Source of the DNA: Owenweeksia sp.
GTDB taxonomy: Bacteria; Bacteroidota; Bacteroidia; Flavobacteriales; Schleiferiaceae
Direction: 5' to 3'
Assembly: GCA_002695025.1 (NCBI GenBank)
Contig: NZNV01000022.1
Span: 1-48,184 of the forward strand
Length of the DNA: 48,184 bases
Shown here: one piece after another, positions 17,595 through 43,086 of the stretch
How the letters are laid out: each line of letters opens with the position of its first letter
Numbering within the stretch: the stretch's first letter is position 1
Program-made: the position numbers and the translations under genes
The notes under the pieces: generated by a model
Told to the model about the DNA's origin: nothing
The model's input: the letters and a program-made list of their open reading frames with translations, nothing else
The model's database searches: none

Positions 17595-20444
17595 TTAGAA
17601 TTTTTCAAATAAAATGGAAAAATAAGCCAAGCGACCGACTGAAGGACCACCGTACACTTGGTAAACCTGGTTATCCAGAATATTGGATGCCCCCAATTTA
17701 AAGGTGGTATATAGCTTTGGAACTGCGTAACTTACCTGGGCATCAGTTAGGCCATAACTATTGATGAAACCAGTAAACTGGGGTGATCCTTCAAAGCGAA
17801 AGCCTTCCACCCATTTGTACGTAACGGCAAAGCCTAATTTATGATCACGGTTCTTGAAAAGCTTATATCCCCGGCCGGTAATTCCCAAATTGAACTTATT
17901 ACGGGGAGTGTTAAAAGCTGGAATAATGGGATTATCACTTCCACGAAGGTCCAATTGATTGAACGAGTAATTACCGTTGAGGGTAAGTTCATCGGTTAAA
18001 TAATAGTTGGCACCCAGGTTTATACCCTGACTGGTGACCAGTTCTTTGGCGTTGGCAGCTACGCGATAAGCCTGAAGACTCTGAAAGCGGTTGGGTGCAA
18101 TTTCGCTGAAAGTAAGGTCCAGTCCGAACTGGTAGCCAATGAAATTGGTGTACCAGTTGTGGTAATAGTTCACATCAATAAACATCCTCTTAAAAAGTGA
18201 AGCCCGGTATCCTACCTCAATGGTTCTAACCCGCTCCGGTTCAATGGGGTCTACATTAAAGAAGGAGAGATTGTCCTTCAGCAAGGTTTCCTGGTTACGG
18301 TAAAAATCAAAGGACTCTAGTGTTACCAGGGAGTCGTAACCATTCAGATTACCCAGTAAAATAGCTCTTCCTACGTTATATCGCAAATACTGATCCTGTA
18401 AGGTGGGGTTCCGGATAGCACTACCAAAAGAAGCTCTTAGCGTGTTTCTAGAGTCTATGTTATACACCACGGATACGGCTGGTGAAAACAGGTAGTCGAA
18501 ATTCTGATTCTTATCCATACGGATAGTCAGGTTTGTAATAAACTGTTCCCCTAAGAATTTCTTTTCCAAACCCACATAAGCTCCGAATTCTGAATTCCTG
18601 ATCTTACGGAAACTGGTGTCTGTGGTAGGAAGTCCATTGGAATCAATCCCCGGGGTAAAAACCAACTCGTCAAAGATGTTGCCTCTTGAATCCGGTAAGT
18701 AAAGACGGTAATTACCCCCTACTTTAACGGTAGCCCAGGAAGGGTTGAACTGATATTCTCCCATAATGTGGTAGAGGGCCGAACGGTCGTAAAACCGAGA
18801 GCCTCCTTCTGTAAATGTTCGGGAGGTAACATAATTCAGTAACGAATCATATTCAGGACTACCAGCTTCAACGGTAGGAAAACTGAATTCATTGATAACA
18901 TCCAGTACGCTATCGTGCCACATGGTCAGCAGGTTGTTGTATTTGGCCAAAGTATCCTGGTAGTCCGTGGTAAACCATTCATCGATGCTTTGCCCATTCG
19001 CTGTATCCGGGTAACCGGCAATAGCCAGGAATTTATTACCCATTCCATAACCCTGTGGAGGCTTATTACGCCATAGGGCGGTGTACTGCCTGTACCACTC
19101 CGCTGAGGGAGCTACGGTTTCGTTCATTTTAAAGGCGGTGAGCACCGCATCGTAAGAGTTGCCCGCATCCTCCTGCGTTTTATAGGCTTTAATGAAAAAA
19201 TGATCTTTCTTTTCCAGTTCTACTACGTGTTGATAGAACTGTATATCCTTTAAACTGAAACGGTTTTCACCCTGATATACCGTAGTTCCGGTGCCGTAAT
19301 TAAAGTTGTAGCTCAACTCGATCTCCTCGGTTAACCTGAAAAAAGCTCCAAGGTTAGTCTTGAGGTTCCTTGAATTGTAATCTACTATATCCTCTTCCCG
19401 ATAACCTGGCCTGTAGAAAATCCCCAGGCCCGCGTAGGATGTTGGCTGATCTAAAACGTTGTTCACATTATTAAAGTCGTTACCCCCGGTAAGGTCTTCA
19501 TCCCCATACACATTAATAGCATCGTACCTGCCTGGATTATCCCGACCAACGGGAGAGTCATCAACAGGATCGTAATTGGTAGCTTCCCAATCATTGGCGG
19601 TGAGATAAAACAGGTTTATCTTAAAAGCTACATTGTCGTAATCCCTATCGAAGGCCTTGAATGCTTCTGCATAACGTACAGCCGTTTCAGTAAGTGCCCG
19701 CTCTCCTATTTTAACACTGGCGGAAATACCCTGGTAGTCGAATGGGTTTTTAGTAGTCATACTGATTACCCCGTTAAAAGCTCCCGGGCCGTAAAAAGCC
19801 GTGCTGGCGCCAGCAATGATATCCACATTTTGTACATCGAGTTCACTGGCACCTAAAAAATTACCCAACGAAAAGTTAAGCCCCGGAGCCTGGTTATCCA
19901 CACCATCAATAATCTGCAGGGACCGCACCGGAGAGGTACTGTTAAACCCCCGGGTATTGATGATCTTGAAACCAATACTGGCGGAAGTAAGGTCTACCCC
20001 CTTAAGATTACCCAGGGCCTCGTAAAAATTAGCTGCGGGTGTTTCCTTGATAGCCAGGTTATCCAATGCCTCAACGGTTAAAGCGCTTTCTCTTTGTTTT
20101 TGGCTAAGACGTTGTTCAATTACACTTACCTCTCCCAGCATTTCCTTGTCTTCACTGAGTTTAACCGTAATTCCAGACCTTAAATCAGTGACTTCCATAG
20201 TCTCTTTGCGATAACCGATAAAACTCACTTCTACCGCAAAGGGCAGCTGCACTCCCTTCGTATTAAGCGAAAAAGTCCCATTTATATCAGTAGTAGTGCC
20301 ATTGACGGTTCCTTTAATAACAATATTGGCTCCAATAACAGGCTCATTTGTAGAGGCATCCAATACTTTTCCATTCAGGACCTGGGCATGAAGACCGTTT
20401 AGTGAAAATGCAAGAAACAGAAGACAGTAGCTAATTATTCGCAT
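17595..20444 (-). CDS. TonB-dependent outer-membrane receptor with carboxypeptidase-like N-domain
   Basis: 949 residues from the ATG at 20444, chosen because it gives a signal peptide (MRIISYCLLFLAFSLNGLHAQ); the open frame extends 50 residues further but without family sense. After the signal come a CarbopepD_reg_2 domain (about 22-100: GKVLDASTNEPVIGANIVIKG), the plug (about 120-250, with RGFNSTSPVRSLQIIDGVD and GPGAFNGVISMTTK) and the 22-strand barrel to the C-terminal aromatic FEKF. There is no SusD-like partner. Downstream is a secreted alpha/beta hydrolase, so the substrate may be an ester-containing compound; that is conjecture. The substrate is unknown. Confidence 0.93.
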   Translation of the reverse strand: MRIISYCLLFLAFSLNGLHAQVLNGKVLDASTNEPVIGANIVIKGTVNGTTTDINGTFSLNTKGVQLPFAVEVSFIGYRKETMEVTDLRSGITVKLSEDKEMLGEVSVIEQRLSQKQRESALTVEALDNLAIKETPAANFYEALGNLKGVDLTSASIGFKIINTRGFNSTSPVRSLQIIDGVDNQAPGLNFSLGNFLGASELDVQNVDIIAGASTAFYGPGAFNGVISMTTKNPFDYQGISASVKIGERALTETAVRYAEAFKAFDRDYDNVAFKINLFYLTANDWEATNYDPVDDSPVGRDNPGRYDAINVYGDEDLTGGNDFNNVNNVLDQPTSYAGLGIFYRPGYREEDIVDYNSRNLKTNLGAFFRLTEEIELSYNFNYGTGTTVYQGENRFSLKDIQFYQHVVELEKKDHFFIKAYKTQEDAGNSYDAVLTAFKMNETVAPSAEWYRQYTALWRNKPPQGYGMGNKFLAIAGYPDTANGQSIDEWFTTDYQDTLAKYNNLLTMWHDSVLDVINEFSFPTVEAGSPEYDSLLNYVTSRTFTEGGSRFYDRSALYHIMGEYQFNPSWATVKVGGNYRLYLPDSRGNIFDELVFTPGIDSNGLPTTDTSFRKIRNSEFGAYVGLEKKFLGEQFITNLTIRMDKNQNFDYLFSPAVSVVYNIDSRNTLRASFGSAIRNPTLQDQYLRYNVGRAILLGNLNGYDSLVTLESFDFYRNQETLLKDNLSFFNVDPIEPERVRTIEVGYRASLFKRMFIDVNYYHNWYTNFIGYQFGLDLTFSEIAPNRFQSLQAYRVAANAKELVTSQGINLGANYYLTDELTLNGNYSFNQLDLRGSDNPIIPAFNTPRNKFNLGITGRGYKLFKNRDHKLGFAVTYKWVEGFRFEGSPQFTGFINSYGLTDAQVSYAVPKLYTTFKLGASNILDNQVYQVYGGPSVGRLAYFSILFEKF

Positions 20445-20536
20445 AAGGAGTGGATTATCTGGGTAGAAAACTACAAAAATTACGGACTTATTTGCCGTAA
20501 TACAATTCCCGGCAGAAATTATATTTTTGCCCCGCC

Positions 20537-21280
20537 ATGATCGATAATCAGAAAATAGTGGTGGTACTTCCGGCCTATAATGCTGGAAAAACACTGGAAA
20601 GAACTTACGCTGAGATACCTTTTGACATTGTAGACGATGTAGTATTGGTGGACGATAAGAGTTCCGATGACACCGTTGAAGTAGGAAAAAAACTCGGTAT
20701 TCAGCATATTATCTCCCACCCTATCAACCGCGGATACGGGGGAAATCAGAAAAGCTGTTACGATAAAGCCCTTGAAATAGGTGGTGATATTGTGGTTATG
20801 CTTCACCCGGATTACCAGTATACTCCTAAACTGATCCATTCCATGGCCTATCTCATTGCCAAAGGCCTTTATCCAACAGTACTCGGTTCACGGATTTTAG
20901 GAATGGGTGCACTTCGCGGGGGAATGCCCTGGTATAAATACATAGCCAACCGTATTCTCACCCTTACCCAAAACATCTTGCTCAACCAAAAACTTTCGGA
21001 ATACCATACCGGGTACCGCGCCTTTTCACGTGAAGTACTCCAATCGGTAAACTATGAGCTCAATTCCGATGATTTTGTTTTTGATAACCAAATGCTGGGT
21101 CAGATATTTTATAAAGGTTTTGAGATTGGCGAAATAACCTGCCCTACCAAATATTTTCCGGAGGCTTCTTCCATTAACCTCAAGCGGAGCTCTATATATG
21201 GCCTTGGGGTGCTTAAGGTCTCCCTTCAATACCGTTTGGCTAAGTGGGGGTTTATAAAGCCTGCGTATCTCACCAAATAA
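20537..21280 (+). CDS. Family 2 glycosyltransferase (DPM1/polyprenyl-phosphate sugar type)
   Basis: 247 residues. GT-A fold with VVVLPAYNAGKTLERTY (8-24), VVLVDDKSSDDTVEV (35-49), NRGYGGNQKSCYDKAL (64-79) and MLHPDYQYTPKL, where the metal-site DxD is HPD. EYHTGYRAFSREVL is the acceptor-loop motif. No membrane segment at the end. Such enzymes often transfer a sugar to a polyprenyl phosphate, which would supply the convergent GT39 enzyme next to it. An exact TATTTTTG promoter element lies at 20522-20529, giving an almost leaderless mRNA. The gene ends 3 bases from the convergent GT39 stop codon. Confidence 0.88.
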   Translation: MIDNQKIVVVLPAYNAGKTLERTYAEIPFDIVDDVVLVDDKSSDDTVEVGKKLGIQHIISHPINRGYGGNQKSCYDKALEIGGDIVVMLHPDYQYTPKLIHSMAYLIAKGLYPTVLGSRILGMGALRGGMPWYKYIANRILTLTQNILLNQKLSEYHTGYRAFSREVLQSVNYELNSDDFVFDNQMLGQIFYKGFEIGEITCPTKYFPEASSINLKRSSIYGLGVLKVSLQYRLAKWGFIKPAYLTK

Positions 21281-39256: not shown

Positions 39257-39652
39257 TTATTGAATGGGTATAGTGTATGAGTTTACCCGCAGATATTGTA
39301 CATCGTGCTTTTTAACCGAAGGCATCAGGTAAAAACTCAAATCCTTTTTTAAGATTGAGAAACAGCGGTCATCAGAGAAATGTACCAGGCTTAACTTTAA
39401 AGTATCCGACTTCTTGTTGATTTCCGGATCGTAAACGCATTCAAACCGGTGGTCGTTTTTGCAACCGCCTTTGAATTGTACCGCCATATTTACTGAATCC
39501 GACTGAAGTGACAGTTCCTGGATCTCTATAAACACGTCCTGTTGACTAAACTCAAAATTGCTCTTTACCTGAATATCATGATCCAACGGCTTTGTGCTGT
39601 TACAAGCAAAAAGTGAAACTACCAGGCAGGTAATCAGCAAAAATGATCTCAT
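39257..39652 (-). CDS. Small uncharacterised lipoprotein
   Basis: 131 residues with lipobox VSLFAC (Cys17). Family not recognised. The mature part is beta-rich (FEFSQQDVFIEIQELSL, SVNMAVQFKGGC, DTLKLSLVHFS) with two further cysteines around 64 and 72. It starts inside the end of the S1-protease gene (overlap of 4 bases, ATGA-type), so it is the last gene of the sigma-factor run. Confidence 0.8.
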   Translation of the reverse strand: MRSFLLITCLVVSLFACNSTKPLDHDIQVKSNFEFSQQDVFIEIQELSLQSDSVNMAVQFKGGCKNDHRFECVYDPEINKKSDTLKLSLVHFSDDRCFSILKKDLSFYLMPSVKKHDVQYLRVNSYTIPIQ

Positions 39653-40710
39653 CGCAATACCACTTTACGGCTGAACCCATTATTACCAGACTGGAGATTT
39701 ACGATATACAGCCCCGGAGCCTGATTTACGTTCAGTTCAAATTCCAGCTGACCGGGTCCAAGTTCCTTCTCCATTAAAGTTCGGCCAGATACGTCCAGTA
39801 GTTTCAGGCTTGTTTCATATTCCAATGGTTTTTGGAATTCCACCTTCAGAGTAGATCCTTGCTGGTAAATATGGGTAGTTCTTTCCAGGAAATGCTCAGA
39901 CAAACCTATGGAAGTGATGGTCTGATCTATCCAGTTGCGGTATTTACGCACCTTGGTATAAATACCTGGATATTGACTGGTAGAGTATCGCTGTTGCCCC
40001 CAGCTAACGGCCCCCAGCAGGATGCGTTGTCCATTTACCTCTGCAAAAAGAGGGCCTCCGCTATCACCTGCTGCTGCCCCTTGCGCAGAGCCTACCAGTT
40101 TACCGGCACAAATCATATCATCGGTAATACCACCATTGTAACGGCTGGATTCATTACACACCGAAGTGGCAATTACATCGATGACCGTGGTTTGCAGAGT
40201 ATCTATCCTGAATTGTTGGTTGGCCGTGTCGGAGATGCCCCATCCTAATACCCTTACCTGTGCCCCGGCCGCTTCCAATATGGAATCAGCTTCAGAAGGT
40301 AAAAGGATGGGGGTAAAGATTGAAGGTGTTTCCAGGTGGATTAGGGCGATGTCATCGTTCATGCTCTGACCTAGGGAATAGGCAGGAAACGGAATTACAC
40401 TATCACCCTTTATCTTCTCGTAGTTGGTATTAGGGTTTTGCAAAGAATAGGCATTAATAATTACCTCTACTTCACTCAGTGTACCTCCTCCGTTGAACAC
40501 ATCCATGGCACAATGTCCGGCCGTCAGCACCCACTCAGGGTGAATCAGGGCGGCACCACAGAAAGGTTGGTTCTCAGCTGCACCCACTTGTTGCAAACCT
40601 GCCATAAAGGTGTAGGTGTTATTAATGGCATTGGCTCCTCCTACCACTGATTGTGCTTGTATGGTCAAAGAAAGCATCACTAAGATTGAACTGATTATTA
40701 GTTTTTTCAT
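39649..40710 (-). CDS. Secreted S1-family serine protease with type IX sorting domain
   Basis: 353 residues. Signal peptide MKKLIISSILVMLSLTIQAQ is followed almost directly by SVVGG, so there is essentially no propeptide; N-terminal V-V-G-G is the trypsin-like mature start. Triad: TAGHC (His66), DDIAL (Asp120), GDSGGP (Ser217). In chymotrypsin numbering residue 189 is Gly, not Asp, so trypsin specificity is unlikely, and the Cys191 partner is Ala. The last about 80 residues (SLKLLDVSGRTLMEKEL, APGLYIVNLQSG) are a type IX sorting domain. It lies 57 bases after a lipoprotein gene of the sigma-factor cluster. Confidence 0.92.
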   Translation of the reverse strand: MKKLIISSILVMLSLTIQAQSVVGGANAINNTYTFMAGLQQVGAAENQPFCGAALIHPEWVLTAGHCAMDVFNGGGTLSEVEVIINAYSLQNPNTNYEKIKGDSVIPFPAYSLGQSMNDDIALIHLETPSIFTPILLPSEADSILEAAGAQVRVLGWGISDTANQQFRIDTLQTTVIDVIATSVCNESSRYNGGITDDMICAGKLVGSAQGAAAGDSGGPLFAEVNGQRILLGAVSWGQQRYSTSQYPGIYTKVRKYRNWIDQTITSIGLSEHFLERTTHIYQQGSTLKVEFQKPLEYETSLKLLDVSGRTLMEKELGPGQLEFELNVNQAPGLYIVNLQSGNNGFSRKVVLR

Positions 40711-40767: not shown

Positions 40768-41361
40768 TTAGAGAGGAAGTGGAAAACTGGCAGCACCACT
40801 GCCATTTCGCAATATTACCTCCTTGCTACCCATAGGTGAAATAACAGTGGCCTCAAAGGCATATTCCACTTTAAGATACTTTCTGCCAACGCGAATGACT
40901 TCTTCAACCTGGGTAATTTCAAACTTCGCAGATTTATTTTTAGGGTAAACCGTAGCCAGGCTATTTTCGCGTTCATTCACATCAATGATGTATATGCTTA
41001 CTTCATCCGGAGCATAAAAACCTGAAGTATTATAGGGTTTTACTCCTTCCGTAAACGTCCTTTTCATATCCACTGTTGTATCAGTGCTCAGCATGGATGA
41101 GTAATTATTAAATACCAATTGAATAAAATTATCCGGATCCAGTGAATAGGTGAAAACATAGTAACGGGTACCAAAGCCAGGGGTTGCTGTAGTGGCAAAG
41201 GCTTGTACACCATTTTCTGTAACCTGGTATACCTCCTCGGCCCTATCCGTTTCCCATCTTATGAAAAGCTCCGGAGGCTGATTTGCATCTGGTAGTGGTT
41301 CTTTTTTGGAGCAACTAAGGCTAACGGTTAATAGTACTGTCAGAAAACTTAGCTTTTTCAT
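40768..41361 (-). CDS. Uncharacterised lipoprotein of the sigma-factor cluster
   Basis: 197 residues with lipobox LTVSLSC (Cys17). Family not recognised. Mature part has beta-rich repeats (ELFIRWETDRAEEVYQVTENGV, TRYYVFTYSLDPDNFIQLVFNN, FYAPDEVSIYIIDVNERENS). Its start codon overlaps the stop codon of the barrel gene (TAATG). It probably forms an envelope complex with the product of that gene; this is inferred from coupling only. Confidence 0.78.
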   Translation of the reverse strand: MKKLSFLTVLLTVSLSCSKKEPLPDANQPPELFIRWETDRAEEVYQVTENGVQAFATTATPGFGTRYYVFTYSLDPDNFIQLVFNNYSSMLSTDTTVDMKRTFTEGVKPYNTSGFYAPDEVSIYIIDVNERENSLATVYPKNKSAKFEITQVEEVIRVGRKYLKVEYAFEATVISPMGSKEVILRNGSGAASFPLPL

Positions 41362-42548
41362 TAGTTCAGCTTGTATTGAATGGAGAGAATGAGTTCGTGT
41401 ATCTGCAATTGAGATGATGTATACTCCATACGGTTGACCGGAGTTGCCGAATGGCGGTAATTTAATTGCACTTCCGTAAACGGGTTCAGTATATAACCTA
41501 CACCTAACTGGGCTCCTGGAGTTAAAAACCTCATACCGGGATCATAGCCATCACCCAAATCTTCTTTTTCTGTTTCGGAATAGGAATACTGCCGGTATAG
41601 CGAACCGTGATGGTTCAGAAGGAAAGAACCAAACAAGCCGGCCTGTAAGCTGGCACGGTTACTTAATTGCCACCGGTAGTTAAATGACAGATCCAGACTT
41701 TGATAATGGTCCAGCTCATATTCATACAGGGTTTTGTACTCCTGAAGGTAGCGGTAGGTTTCTTCGGAATTGAATTTAATGCCAGACCCTCCGCGTTGCG
41801 TATAATGAAACGAAATTACTAATGACTGCCTTTTAGCCAGGTTCATAACATAGCCCACACCTATGGTAATTCTTTCCGATAACCCGCTTGAATTGCTTCC
41901 TGAAGCTCCCAGGTTTTGCCGTATACCCAGCTCTGTAAAAAAAGTATTTCCCGAAGGTTTTGGCCAGGCCTTTGTCTCTATCTTCCCGGGCTGGTGGTTA
42001 ATGTCCAATTCACCAACCGAGAAGTCCCTGGGAACCGCATGGATCATAAAGGATGCTCTGTTTGTAGATTCTCTTGACATTTCCCCTTGCGCATTCTGCT
42101 CATTTTTGTTCAGGAAATAGTCTGGCTTAGGCGCAGCATAAGTAGTAACCTCCCTGGGAATTTTTGCAAAGGGAGAAGGTTCCGCTGTCTCATCTGCGTA
42201 GACTTCTCTTCCTCCCTGCTCCCGGTTTACCTCGGTCGTAGGGTCTACAACTGATGAAACGGTTTGTTGGCTACTTTCCTTTTCTTTAGGCACCACCTCT
42301 TCAAAAGGTAATGGTACCACTTCCTTTTTATTCGGTGTCTCAGCTTCTATTCCAAACCAGGCCACCACACCAAGTATACCAACGATTAGCACTATTAAAC
42401 TCCAGAGCAACCAGCTCCTTGAGTTTTGCTTTACAAGCCTGCCTTTCCTGGTTTCGTAAAAATCTTCCCAGTATTTTTCGTCAAAAGGCTCCTCAGCCTT
42501 CCTAAAAGCCTTTTGAAAGAGCTGGTCTATTTCATCATGATCTTTCAT
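41361..42548 (-). CDS. Anti-sigma-like inner-membrane domain fused to an outer-membrane beta-barrel
   Basis: 395 residues from the ATG at 42548; the longer frame (120 bases more) overlaps far into the sigma gene and is unlikely. Residues 1-44 are a charged cytosolic segment (DEIDQLFQKAFRKAEEPF), 45-67 are a hydrophobic helix (SWLLWSLIVLIVGILGVVAWFGI), and residues 68-195 are Pro/Glu-rich linker. From about 200 on there are alternating amphipathic strands with an aromatic end (LILSIQYKLN), as in PorT-like barrels. Overlap with the sigma gene (14 bases) supports an anti-sigma role. The same polypeptide seems to have an inner-membrane helix and an outer-membrane barrel. Confidence 0.8.
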   Translation of the reverse strand: MKDHDEIDQLFQKAFRKAEEPFDEKYWEDFYETRKGRLVKQNSRSWLLWSLIVLIVGILGVVAWFGIEAETPNKKEVVPLPFEEVVPKEKESSQQTVSSVVDPTTEVNREQGGREVYADETAEPSPFAKIPREVTTYAAPKPDYFLNKNEQNAQGEMSRESTNRASFMIHAVPRDFSVGELDINHQPGKIETKAWPKPSGNTFFTELGIRQNLGASGSNSSGLSERITIGVGYVMNLAKRQSLVISFHYTQRGGSGIKFNSEETYRYLQEYKTLYEYELDHYQSLDLSFNYRWQLSNRASLQAGLFGSFLLNHHGSLYRQYSYSETEKEDLGDGYDPGMRFLTPGAQLGVGYILNPFTEVQLNYRHSATPVNRMEYTSSQLQIHELILSIQYKLN

Positions 42549-43086
42549 TTTCCTGTATAGTCTTAAGATTTTCCTGTAATGCTTTCCTGGCCTGGTGCAG
42601 GCAATATTTGGAGTTGGCCACCGTAATATTGAGCTTCCTGCCGATTTCTTGGTGGTTGTAACCATCAAGCACGAACAGGTTGAACACGTTCTTATGCTGT
42701 TCGGGTAAACCGTTAAGCAACCAACTCAAATAGTAATAATGGTGCTGCTCTTCAGCTTCAGAGGAAATGGTTGTCGGGCAAAAAAAAGTATCCGGGTTCT
42801 TGATGGTATTACGGTGCCGCGAAACACTGCGCAGATAGTCCAGGCATTTGTGCACCACTATCTTTCGTATCCACCCCTCAAAGCTTCCTATGCCCTGGTA
42901 TTGATTGATGGACGTGAAAACCTTAAGAAAGGCATCGTTTAGCACTTCCTGCGCTTCTTCCCTTTGCCCTACATAGCGCAGGCAAAGGGGAAACATTTTC
43001 CCATAAAACCTGGAGTAACAATCCTTTTGAGCCTGTGTATTGTGTTTTTTACAGCCCTTGATTATATCCTTTAATTCCTGATCCAC
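42535..43086 (-). CDS. ECF-type RNA polymerase sigma factor
   Basis: 183 residues. Sigma region 2: YSRFYGKMFPLCLRYVGQREEAQEVLNDAFLKVF (key D-A-F), with IGSFEGWIRKIVVHKCLDYLR; region 4: LPEQHKNVFNLFVLDGYNHQEIGRKLNITVANSKYCLHQARKAL. These match group IV sigma factors, which direct transcription of envelope-stress or surface-related regulons. The start is GTG at 43086; no ATG fits. The downstream overlapping gene has the anti-sigma-like domain. Promoter not evident in the 136 bases upstream; ECF genes are often autoregulated. Confidence 0.93.
   Translation of the reverse strand: MDQELKDIIKGCKKHNTQAQKDCYSRFYGKMFPLCLRYVGQREEAQEVLNDAFLKVFTSINQYQGIGSFEGWIRKIVVHKCLDYLRSVSRHRNTIKNPDTFFCPTTISSEAEEQHHYYYLSWLLNGLPEQHKNVFNLFVLDGYNHQEIGRKLNITVANSKYCLHQARKALQENLKTIQENERS

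Follow-up and report, generated by a model that had tools for sequence, protein, structure and literature searches.

The window considered here, a stretch of 48,184 nt from Owenweeksia sp. (Schleiferiaceae, Flavobacteriales; assembly GCA_002695025.1, contig NZNV01000022.1), carries three head-to-tail genes on its minus strand, which encode, in this order, an extracytoplasmic function (ECF) sigma factor, a fusion protein and a lipoprotein. The fusion protein is very probably a new member of the dual membrane-spanning anti-sigma (Dma) kind, of known architecture, and probably restrains the sigma factor, as judged from sequence comparison, a predicted fold and analogy with tested relatives. It widens the known range of this kind and founds no new one. 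A first-pass annotation of the window had described an ECF sigma factor with an overlapping anti-sigma-like gene fused to a barrel, and this was borne out by the gene coordinates, an AlphaFold2 (AF2) model and barrel matches. Its remark that no description of the mechanism exists is out of date in view of Evans et al. 2022 (PMC9308784) and the work on Dma proteins (PMC13088901), both drawn on here in part.

As cited by later papers, the Dma family was introduced by Pardue et al. (PNAS 2024). According to the part of their follow-up paper in J Bacteriol 2026 used here (PMC13088901), a Dma protein consists of four parts: an N-terminal sigma-binding domain, one helix, a long disordered tether and a C-terminal barrel. 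In the same source, loss of Dma1 or Dma2 of Bacteroides thetaiotaomicron leads to more vesicles, the effect of delta-dma2 on vesicles requires the das2 ECF sigma factor, and das2 and bt_1557 rise in delta-dma2.

The sigma factor and its fused partner

The sigma factor gene (42535-43086, minus strand) starts with GTG and encodes 183 aa with Pfam matches to Sigma70_r2 (E 2.8e-12) and r4_2 (E 4.2e-10); its place in a sigma tree is described below. The fusion gene (41361-42548, minus strand) is a single open frame of 395 codons from an ATG, without inner stops, and is supported by the AF2 model and by homologues. A listed open reading frame (ORF) of 435 aa begins at a TTG inside the sigma gene, and this start is not needed for the fusion protein. 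A frameshift, which had been named as a possible flaw of the first-pass annotation, or a gene-fusion artefact is ruled out by the open frame and by the same layout in two other genera of the family, where the same lipoprotein gene lies behind it, and in named isolates, for instance of Pontibacter and Rufibacter. The sigma and fusion genes overlap by 14 nt (42535-42548, minus strand), which makes translational coupling likely. Overlapping pairs were found at 55 of 73 homologous loci, most commonly with overlaps of 4 nt (23 loci) or 8 nt (11 loci), where the start codon was taken by script as the one nearest the sigma stop.

Residues 1–44 of the fusion protein (42417-42548, minus strand) carry an LF...W motif and are probably the sigma-binding segment. 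F11 and W27 are invariant in a 20-row alignment, and a profile comparison of this segment from the window's relatives with the N-termini of Dma-like proteins of Bacteroidales gave P 97.3 and E 1.9e-11. Zinc-binding anti-sigma (ZAS) factors are marked by the motif H-x3-C-x2-C; this motif is absent from the fusion protein, which lacks any cysteine. A Pfam match to Glyco_hydro_100 (E 8.6e-4) lies on the N-terminal helices below the cut-off and was taken as chance. The segment is followed by a single predicted inner-membrane helix at residues 47–65 (42354-42410, minus strand; hydropathy 2.66), with a net charge of +4 before and -1 after it. The charge was more positive before the helix in 74 of 81 proteins, the window's included, and the reverse was seen in two. 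This pattern predicts that the N-terminus lies in the cytosol. A second helix in the tether was found in none of the 81 proteins.

The AF2 model was built from a 32-row alignment without templates, and gave a mean predicted local distance difference test value (pLDDT) of 71 and a predicted template modelling score of 0.52, with the lowest values in the tether. Helices were predicted at residues 4–16 and 24–64, the second of which includes most of the hydrophobic segment. Residues 66–200 appear disordered, with pLDDT mostly below 50, and ten strands follow between residues 202 and 394. The block means of pLDDT in the barrel are 78–98, except for 54 and 73 across residues 211–230. Since the matching barrels are 8-stranded, eight of the ten strands were assigned to the membrane and the other two to an extra hairpin.

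The tether proper (residues 66–201; 41946-42353, minus strand) is rich in Glu, Pro and Val. The first-pass annotation had given a segment of 44 residues and a linker of 130, and both numbers were right. Across 32 rows the tether is the least conserved part, with a mean pairwise identity of 0.115 against 0.279 for the N-terminal segment, 0.177 for the helix and 0.192 for the barrel. Its length was estimated at 115–321 residues in 61 loci and at 93–180 in 11 Bacteroidales proteins, so that 93 is the shortest estimate among 72 relatives; these figures assume a barrel of 195 residues and exclude L087 and L127 (truncated or odd starts). Left free, a 134-residue coil would measure about 10 nm across, with a contour of about 48 nm, and a worm-like-chain estimate for stretching it over an assumed spacing of 20–25 nm gives about 9–14 pN. 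Taken together, the length floor and the chain estimate fit a protein that has to bridge the periplasm, and they support a tether long enough to do so.

The C-terminal domain (residues 202–395; 41364-41945, minus strand) is read as an 8-stranded outer-membrane beta-barrel. Using VIA-align, residues ~195–395 matched OmpA, NspA, OprF, PagL and OmpW at Z 14.9–15.6 (OmpA 9fzd Z 15.6, NspA 1p4t Z 15.4) and a Legionella porin at Z 16.0. The best Foldseek match of the barrel was likewise OmpA (E 4.9e-8). The polarity alternation along the strands summed to 29.7, against a shuffled mean of 20.7 (s.d. 3.3), and the value was reached by 22 of 5000 shuffles. A barrel profile cross-validated with the window protein's own fold excluded still matched that protein at E 2.2e-10, and none of 32 shuffled sequences was matched. 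An aromatic residue (F, Y or W) stands within the last five positions in 61 of 81 proteins. Among solved structures, the barrel alignment had no clear relative by sequence: the best outer-membrane protein had E 0.11, and the best match overall was a designed protein (E 0.0059) over the helix and tether. In the OmpA family, the barrel is followed by the OmpA peptidoglycan-binding domain. The fusion protein has no Pfam match to that domain, and its chain ends with the barrel. Sequence and model together support one chain that starts in the cytosol, crosses the inner membrane by a single helix, continues as a disordered tether and ends in an outer-membrane barrel like that of OmpA; the earlier proposal of a chain from the cytosol to the outer membrane, with an anti-sigma at one end and a barrel at the other, is in this way upheld computationally.

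Relatives, genome survey and the three-gene unit

The link to the Dma family relies on loci from Bacteroidales. NigD was used as a marker of the Dma1 locus and was found in 12 of 396 genomes, and the sigma search was then made in eight NigD-bearing genomes. The stretches fetched first beside NigD, mostly on the wrong side, held no Dma-like gene. From a longer list, 15 sigma loci were chosen by score or NigD adjacency; 11 of them have a fusion partner, three a short anti-sigma, and one is unclear. At one locus, L234, genes for DUF4943 and DUF4858 stand behind the sigma and fusion genes, and the same set of genes (sigma, fusion, DUF4943, DUF4858) makes up the dma2 operon according to the part of PMC13088901 used here. 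NigD precedes the sigma gene at L225, and a NigD_N-like gene lies behind the fusion gene at L226, L228 and L230. The four sigma loci that adjoin NigD are split evenly between Dma-like partners (L224, L225) and short anti-sigmas (L222, L223), so NigD linkage alone is no mark of a Dma locus. The barrel profile of the window's relatives matched the Bacteroidales Dma-like proteins at P 99.3 and E 3.8e-20, and the dma2-syntenic L234 alone at P 94.7 and E 5.8e-8.

In a tree of 96 sigma factors, a branch with a Shimodaira–Hasegawa-like approximate likelihood ratio test (SH-aLRT) value of 98.5 separates 89, among them that of the window and all the Dma-linked ones in the tree, from seven other sigma factors of the window's own genome; a minority of the 89 have partners that lack a barrel. 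The tree was made by a quick method, its label "Dma-like" is based on length, and it excluded L053, L056, L103, L112, L114, L125, L127 and L129 (close or odd) and L010, L023 and L027 of the own genome. Using a Mantel test over 72 loci, sigma distances were found to correlate with those of the N-terminal segment (r 0.62) and of the barrel (0.67), with a partial value of 0.45, and none of 2000 permutations was as high. The correlation shows co-inheritance of the unit, not binding.

The fusion protein itself is a poor query: at E 1e-3 it found matches in 7 of 88 genomes of the family, its own included. This is because barrel and tether diverge, and the sigma factor is the better bait. When named genomes were scanned with a sigma alignment, the best 80 of 88 loci were taken, seven of which had no complete downstream gene in reach. 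The remaining 73 downstream genes encode 63 long proteins, eight short ones and two with PKD and CHU_C domains. A barrel was recognized by profile in 59 of the 73, of which 28 were cross-validated and 31 held out. The 28 profile members had first been chosen by eye; in four-fold cross-validation with similar rows removed, all 32 profile rows were recovered and none of 32 shuffled ones. Among the held-out long proteins, 31 of 35 matched at E 1e-3 (L061, L086, L117 and L119 did not), and the profile matched none of the eight short proteins and neither PKD-CHU_C protein. Pfam searches of 82 survey proteins at E up to 0.01 gave OMP_b-brl_2 in 39 and OMP_b-brl in 29, as overlapping sets. The first-pass annotation had suggested a search for homologues with both domains, and this search returned the same layout in independent genomes, among them those of named isolates, for instance of Pontibacter and Rufibacter. 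At the 73 loci, the window's sigma branch is most often paired with a barrel fusion, and within the class the sigma type turned up, irrespective of partner, in 386 of the 396 genomes sampled.

In the two PKD-CHU_C proteins (L060:5042-6319 and L082:5036-6301, from Flavobacteriales metagenome-assembled genomes), the helix and tether seem to be followed by PKD domains and by a C-terminal domain of the CHU_C type, which serves type IX secretion. They seemingly replace the barrel, and possibly form another anti-sigma route to the cell surface. Literature searches on CHU_C-type anti-sigma factors and on ECF21 returned nothing useful.

In the window's own genome, 19 sigma-family matches exceeded the cut-off, and one of them (L010) looks like the primary sigma factor. 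Seven of the sigma genes, that of the window among them, precede a gene for a single chain with the fusion layout, as seen from length, helix and sequence. The barrels of the paralogues were found by profile match (L039, L040, L042, L043) or in cross-validation (L047); L041 did not reach the barrel profile threshold, and a profile comparison aligned its N-terminus only (P 94.8). By these predictions, there are six to seven Dma-type genes in this genome. An eighth copy, L037 (contig C12, 1893-3281, minus strand), carries an in-frame stop codon that separates the tether from the barrel, which may be decay, an assembly error or a natural split. At another locus, L038 (contig C13, 410-3548, minus strand), a sigma gene is followed, in this order, by genes for a short one-helix anti-sigma of 241 aa, a secreted acidic protein of 161 aa and a secreted protein of 437 aa. 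The last of these has an extended acidic stretch, probably a coil, and its C-terminus is barrel-like. L038 looks like a split version of the sigma/anti-sigma/barrel system.

The third gene of the window (40768-41361, minus strand) overlaps the fusion gene by 1 nt and encodes a lipoprotein of 197 aa with a lipobox Cys17. It has no Pfam match, and an AF2 model from three rows was poor (mean pLDDT 51). At E 0.01, only two relatives were found in 87 other genomes of the family (G037, G060, two further genera). Both lie directly behind genes for an ECF sigma factor and a protein of 382 or 374 aa with one helix and a tether, whose C-terminal domain can be aligned with the barrel of the window protein. 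The genes outside this unit differ, which indicates that sigma factor, fusion protein and lipoprotein form a conserved unit, and the lipoprotein gene is assigned to it on this comparison.

The survey extends this observation. With two of 81 loci left out for too little DNA, a third gene in the same direction is present at 60 of 79, and at 37 of these 60 its product was called a lipoprotein by a lipobox rule that missed at least L114 and L121. Among the other ORFs of the loci, the background was 24 of 347 (Fisher 6e-21), and the true background rate is probably higher, since this set contains spurious ORFs. Comparison of 41 third-gene products, a few of them non-lipoproteins, gave five groups (the largest of 18) and five singletons at E 1e-3, and the window lipoprotein is one of the singletons. 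The third-gene lipoproteins of Rufibacter and Pontibacter (L052-L056) have Asp runs directly after the lipid Cys. Such runs resemble the surface-export signals of Bacteroidota lipoproteins. Close behind the window's lipoprotein gene lies a gene for a trypsin-like serine protease (39649-40710, minus strand; Pfam E 5.7e-47), with a match to a Por secretion tail under the cut-off of that model.

A possible signalling route and the alternatives

The tested Bacteroides relatives suggest that the N-terminal segment would keep its sigma factor at the inner membrane. Bacteroides genetics suggest that loss of the anti-sigma would turn on the sigma factor's own operon. The barrel may act as the sensor, with its failed assembly, or a change in its outer-membrane surroundings or ligand, as the trigger. 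In this favoured reading, cleavage within the tether or close to it would follow, the N-terminal piece would be released or degraded, and the freed sigma factor would transcribe its own operon, including the lipoprotein gene. The chances that the barrel senses and that cleavage in or near the tether then frees the sigma factor seem about even.

Several points weigh against the Dma assignment or this route. The direct Pfam matches of the window barrel fall below the curated cut-offs. The N-terminal segment matches the dma2-syntenic L234 alone only weakly (P 42, E 2.6e-4) and also resembles short conventional anti-sigmas (P 93.8, E 1.7e-7), which indicates that it marks a wider class of anti-sigma factors. 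The even split of partners at the NigD-adjacent loci means that this group of sigma factors also goes with partners other than barrel proteins. The published dependence on the sigma factor is genetic, and in the parts of the published work used here no direct evidence of a trigger or of cleavage was found. The chain could also be cut constitutively in the steady state.

If the chain were always cut in the tether, the products would be a conventional one-helix anti-sigma and an independent small outer-membrane protein, without direct signalling. The stop in L037, the separate short anti-sigma and secreted barrel-like protein (two genes on) at L038 and the eight short partners without a barrel match among the 73 related sigma factors are in line with this. 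However, the tether stays long in all 72 relatives, none with an estimate below 93 residues, even though its sequence is the least conserved, and the barrel is retained in 59 of 73 downstream genes. Permanent cleavage is considered unlikely.

A more speculative idea, to which we give little credence, is that sigma factor, fusion protein and lipoprotein together act as a mechanical and surface sensor. In it, the tether would be an entropic spring stretched between the membranes, and the lipoprotein would cap or thread the barrel as a ligand on the surface side, in the way of RcsF with outer-membrane proteins. An outer membrane that pulls away or is lost would change the force on the inner-membrane helix and so free the sigma factor. 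This fits the reported effect of Dma loss on vesicle shedding and, if true, would make Dma proteins rulers of envelope spacing.

The first-pass annotation had also allowed for a soluble periplasmic domain, in which case the protein would span the inner membrane only. VIA-align did return soluble barrels, namely the designed mFAP (Z 13.6) and photosystem II chain O (Z 10–10.6). The best matches, however, are outer-membrane barrels (Z 15–16), and the strand alternation above that of the shuffles, the frequent terminal aromatic residue and the outer-membrane barrel families as the commonest Pfam matches among the relatives all disfavor a soluble domain, which is very improbable. A FecR-type reading can be dismissed with near certainty: although such systems likewise pair an ECF sigma factor with a one-helix anti-sigma, TIGR02985 matches the sigma factor (81.6 bits, below the cut-off of 126.4) and FecR domains occur in one of 82 survey proteins, the window protein gave no match to PF04773 or PF16344 at E up to 10 (HMMER filters drop most weak matches), its barrel sits in the same chain as the anti-sigma, and no TonB-dependent receptor was seen among the neighbouring ORFs, a TonB-receptor-like ORF lying more than 20 kb off (17595-20594).

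Comparison with known systems

Direct signalling from the outer membrane to RNA polymerase through one molecule, as predicted here, would be unusual, and the window extends this layout from gut Bacteroides to a distant lineage of Bacteroidota, with six or seven such genes in a single genome. From sequence analysis, several genes in one genome, a floor on tether length, a recurring third-gene lipoprotein and gene overlaps are added to what is known of Dma systems. The length floor and the lipoprotein are testable handles on how a signal crosses the periplasm.

FecR-type anti-sigma factors resemble the window pair in that an ECF sigma factor is controlled from the envelope. RcsF of E. coli, as far as the source used here goes, also combines a lipoprotein with a barrel protein in sensing the outer membrane, whereas the window barrel is covalently tied to the anti-sigma. 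A closer counterpart is M0N98_03760 of Phocaeicola vulgatus. In the part of Evans et al. 2022 used here (PMC9308784), it is called an "unusual anti-sigma factor", lies next to a sigma gene, and is predicted to cross the periplasm and to end in an outer-membrane barrel, as is the window protein. Its output is longer O-antigen and protection from a toxin, and the authors likened it to an oxidative-stress pair of B. fragilis.

The closest known systems are Dma1 and Dma2 of B. thetaiotaomicron with their Das sigma factors, which, in the part of PMC13088901 used here, share with the window the four-part layout, the adjacent ECF sigma factor and the three-gene operon. The sequence comparison was made with Bacteroidales relatives, including a dma2-syntenic one, and showed their barrel and N-terminal segment to be homologous. 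Dma proteins are defined with an adjacent ECF21 sigma factor; the window has an adjacent ECF sigma factor that groups with Dma-linked Bacteroidales sigma factors in the tree. The differences are that barrel and tether of the window protein have diverged, with 8–21% identity of the protein to its relatives, and that neither DUF4943 nor NigD is indicated for the third gene of the unit, which lacks a Pfam match.

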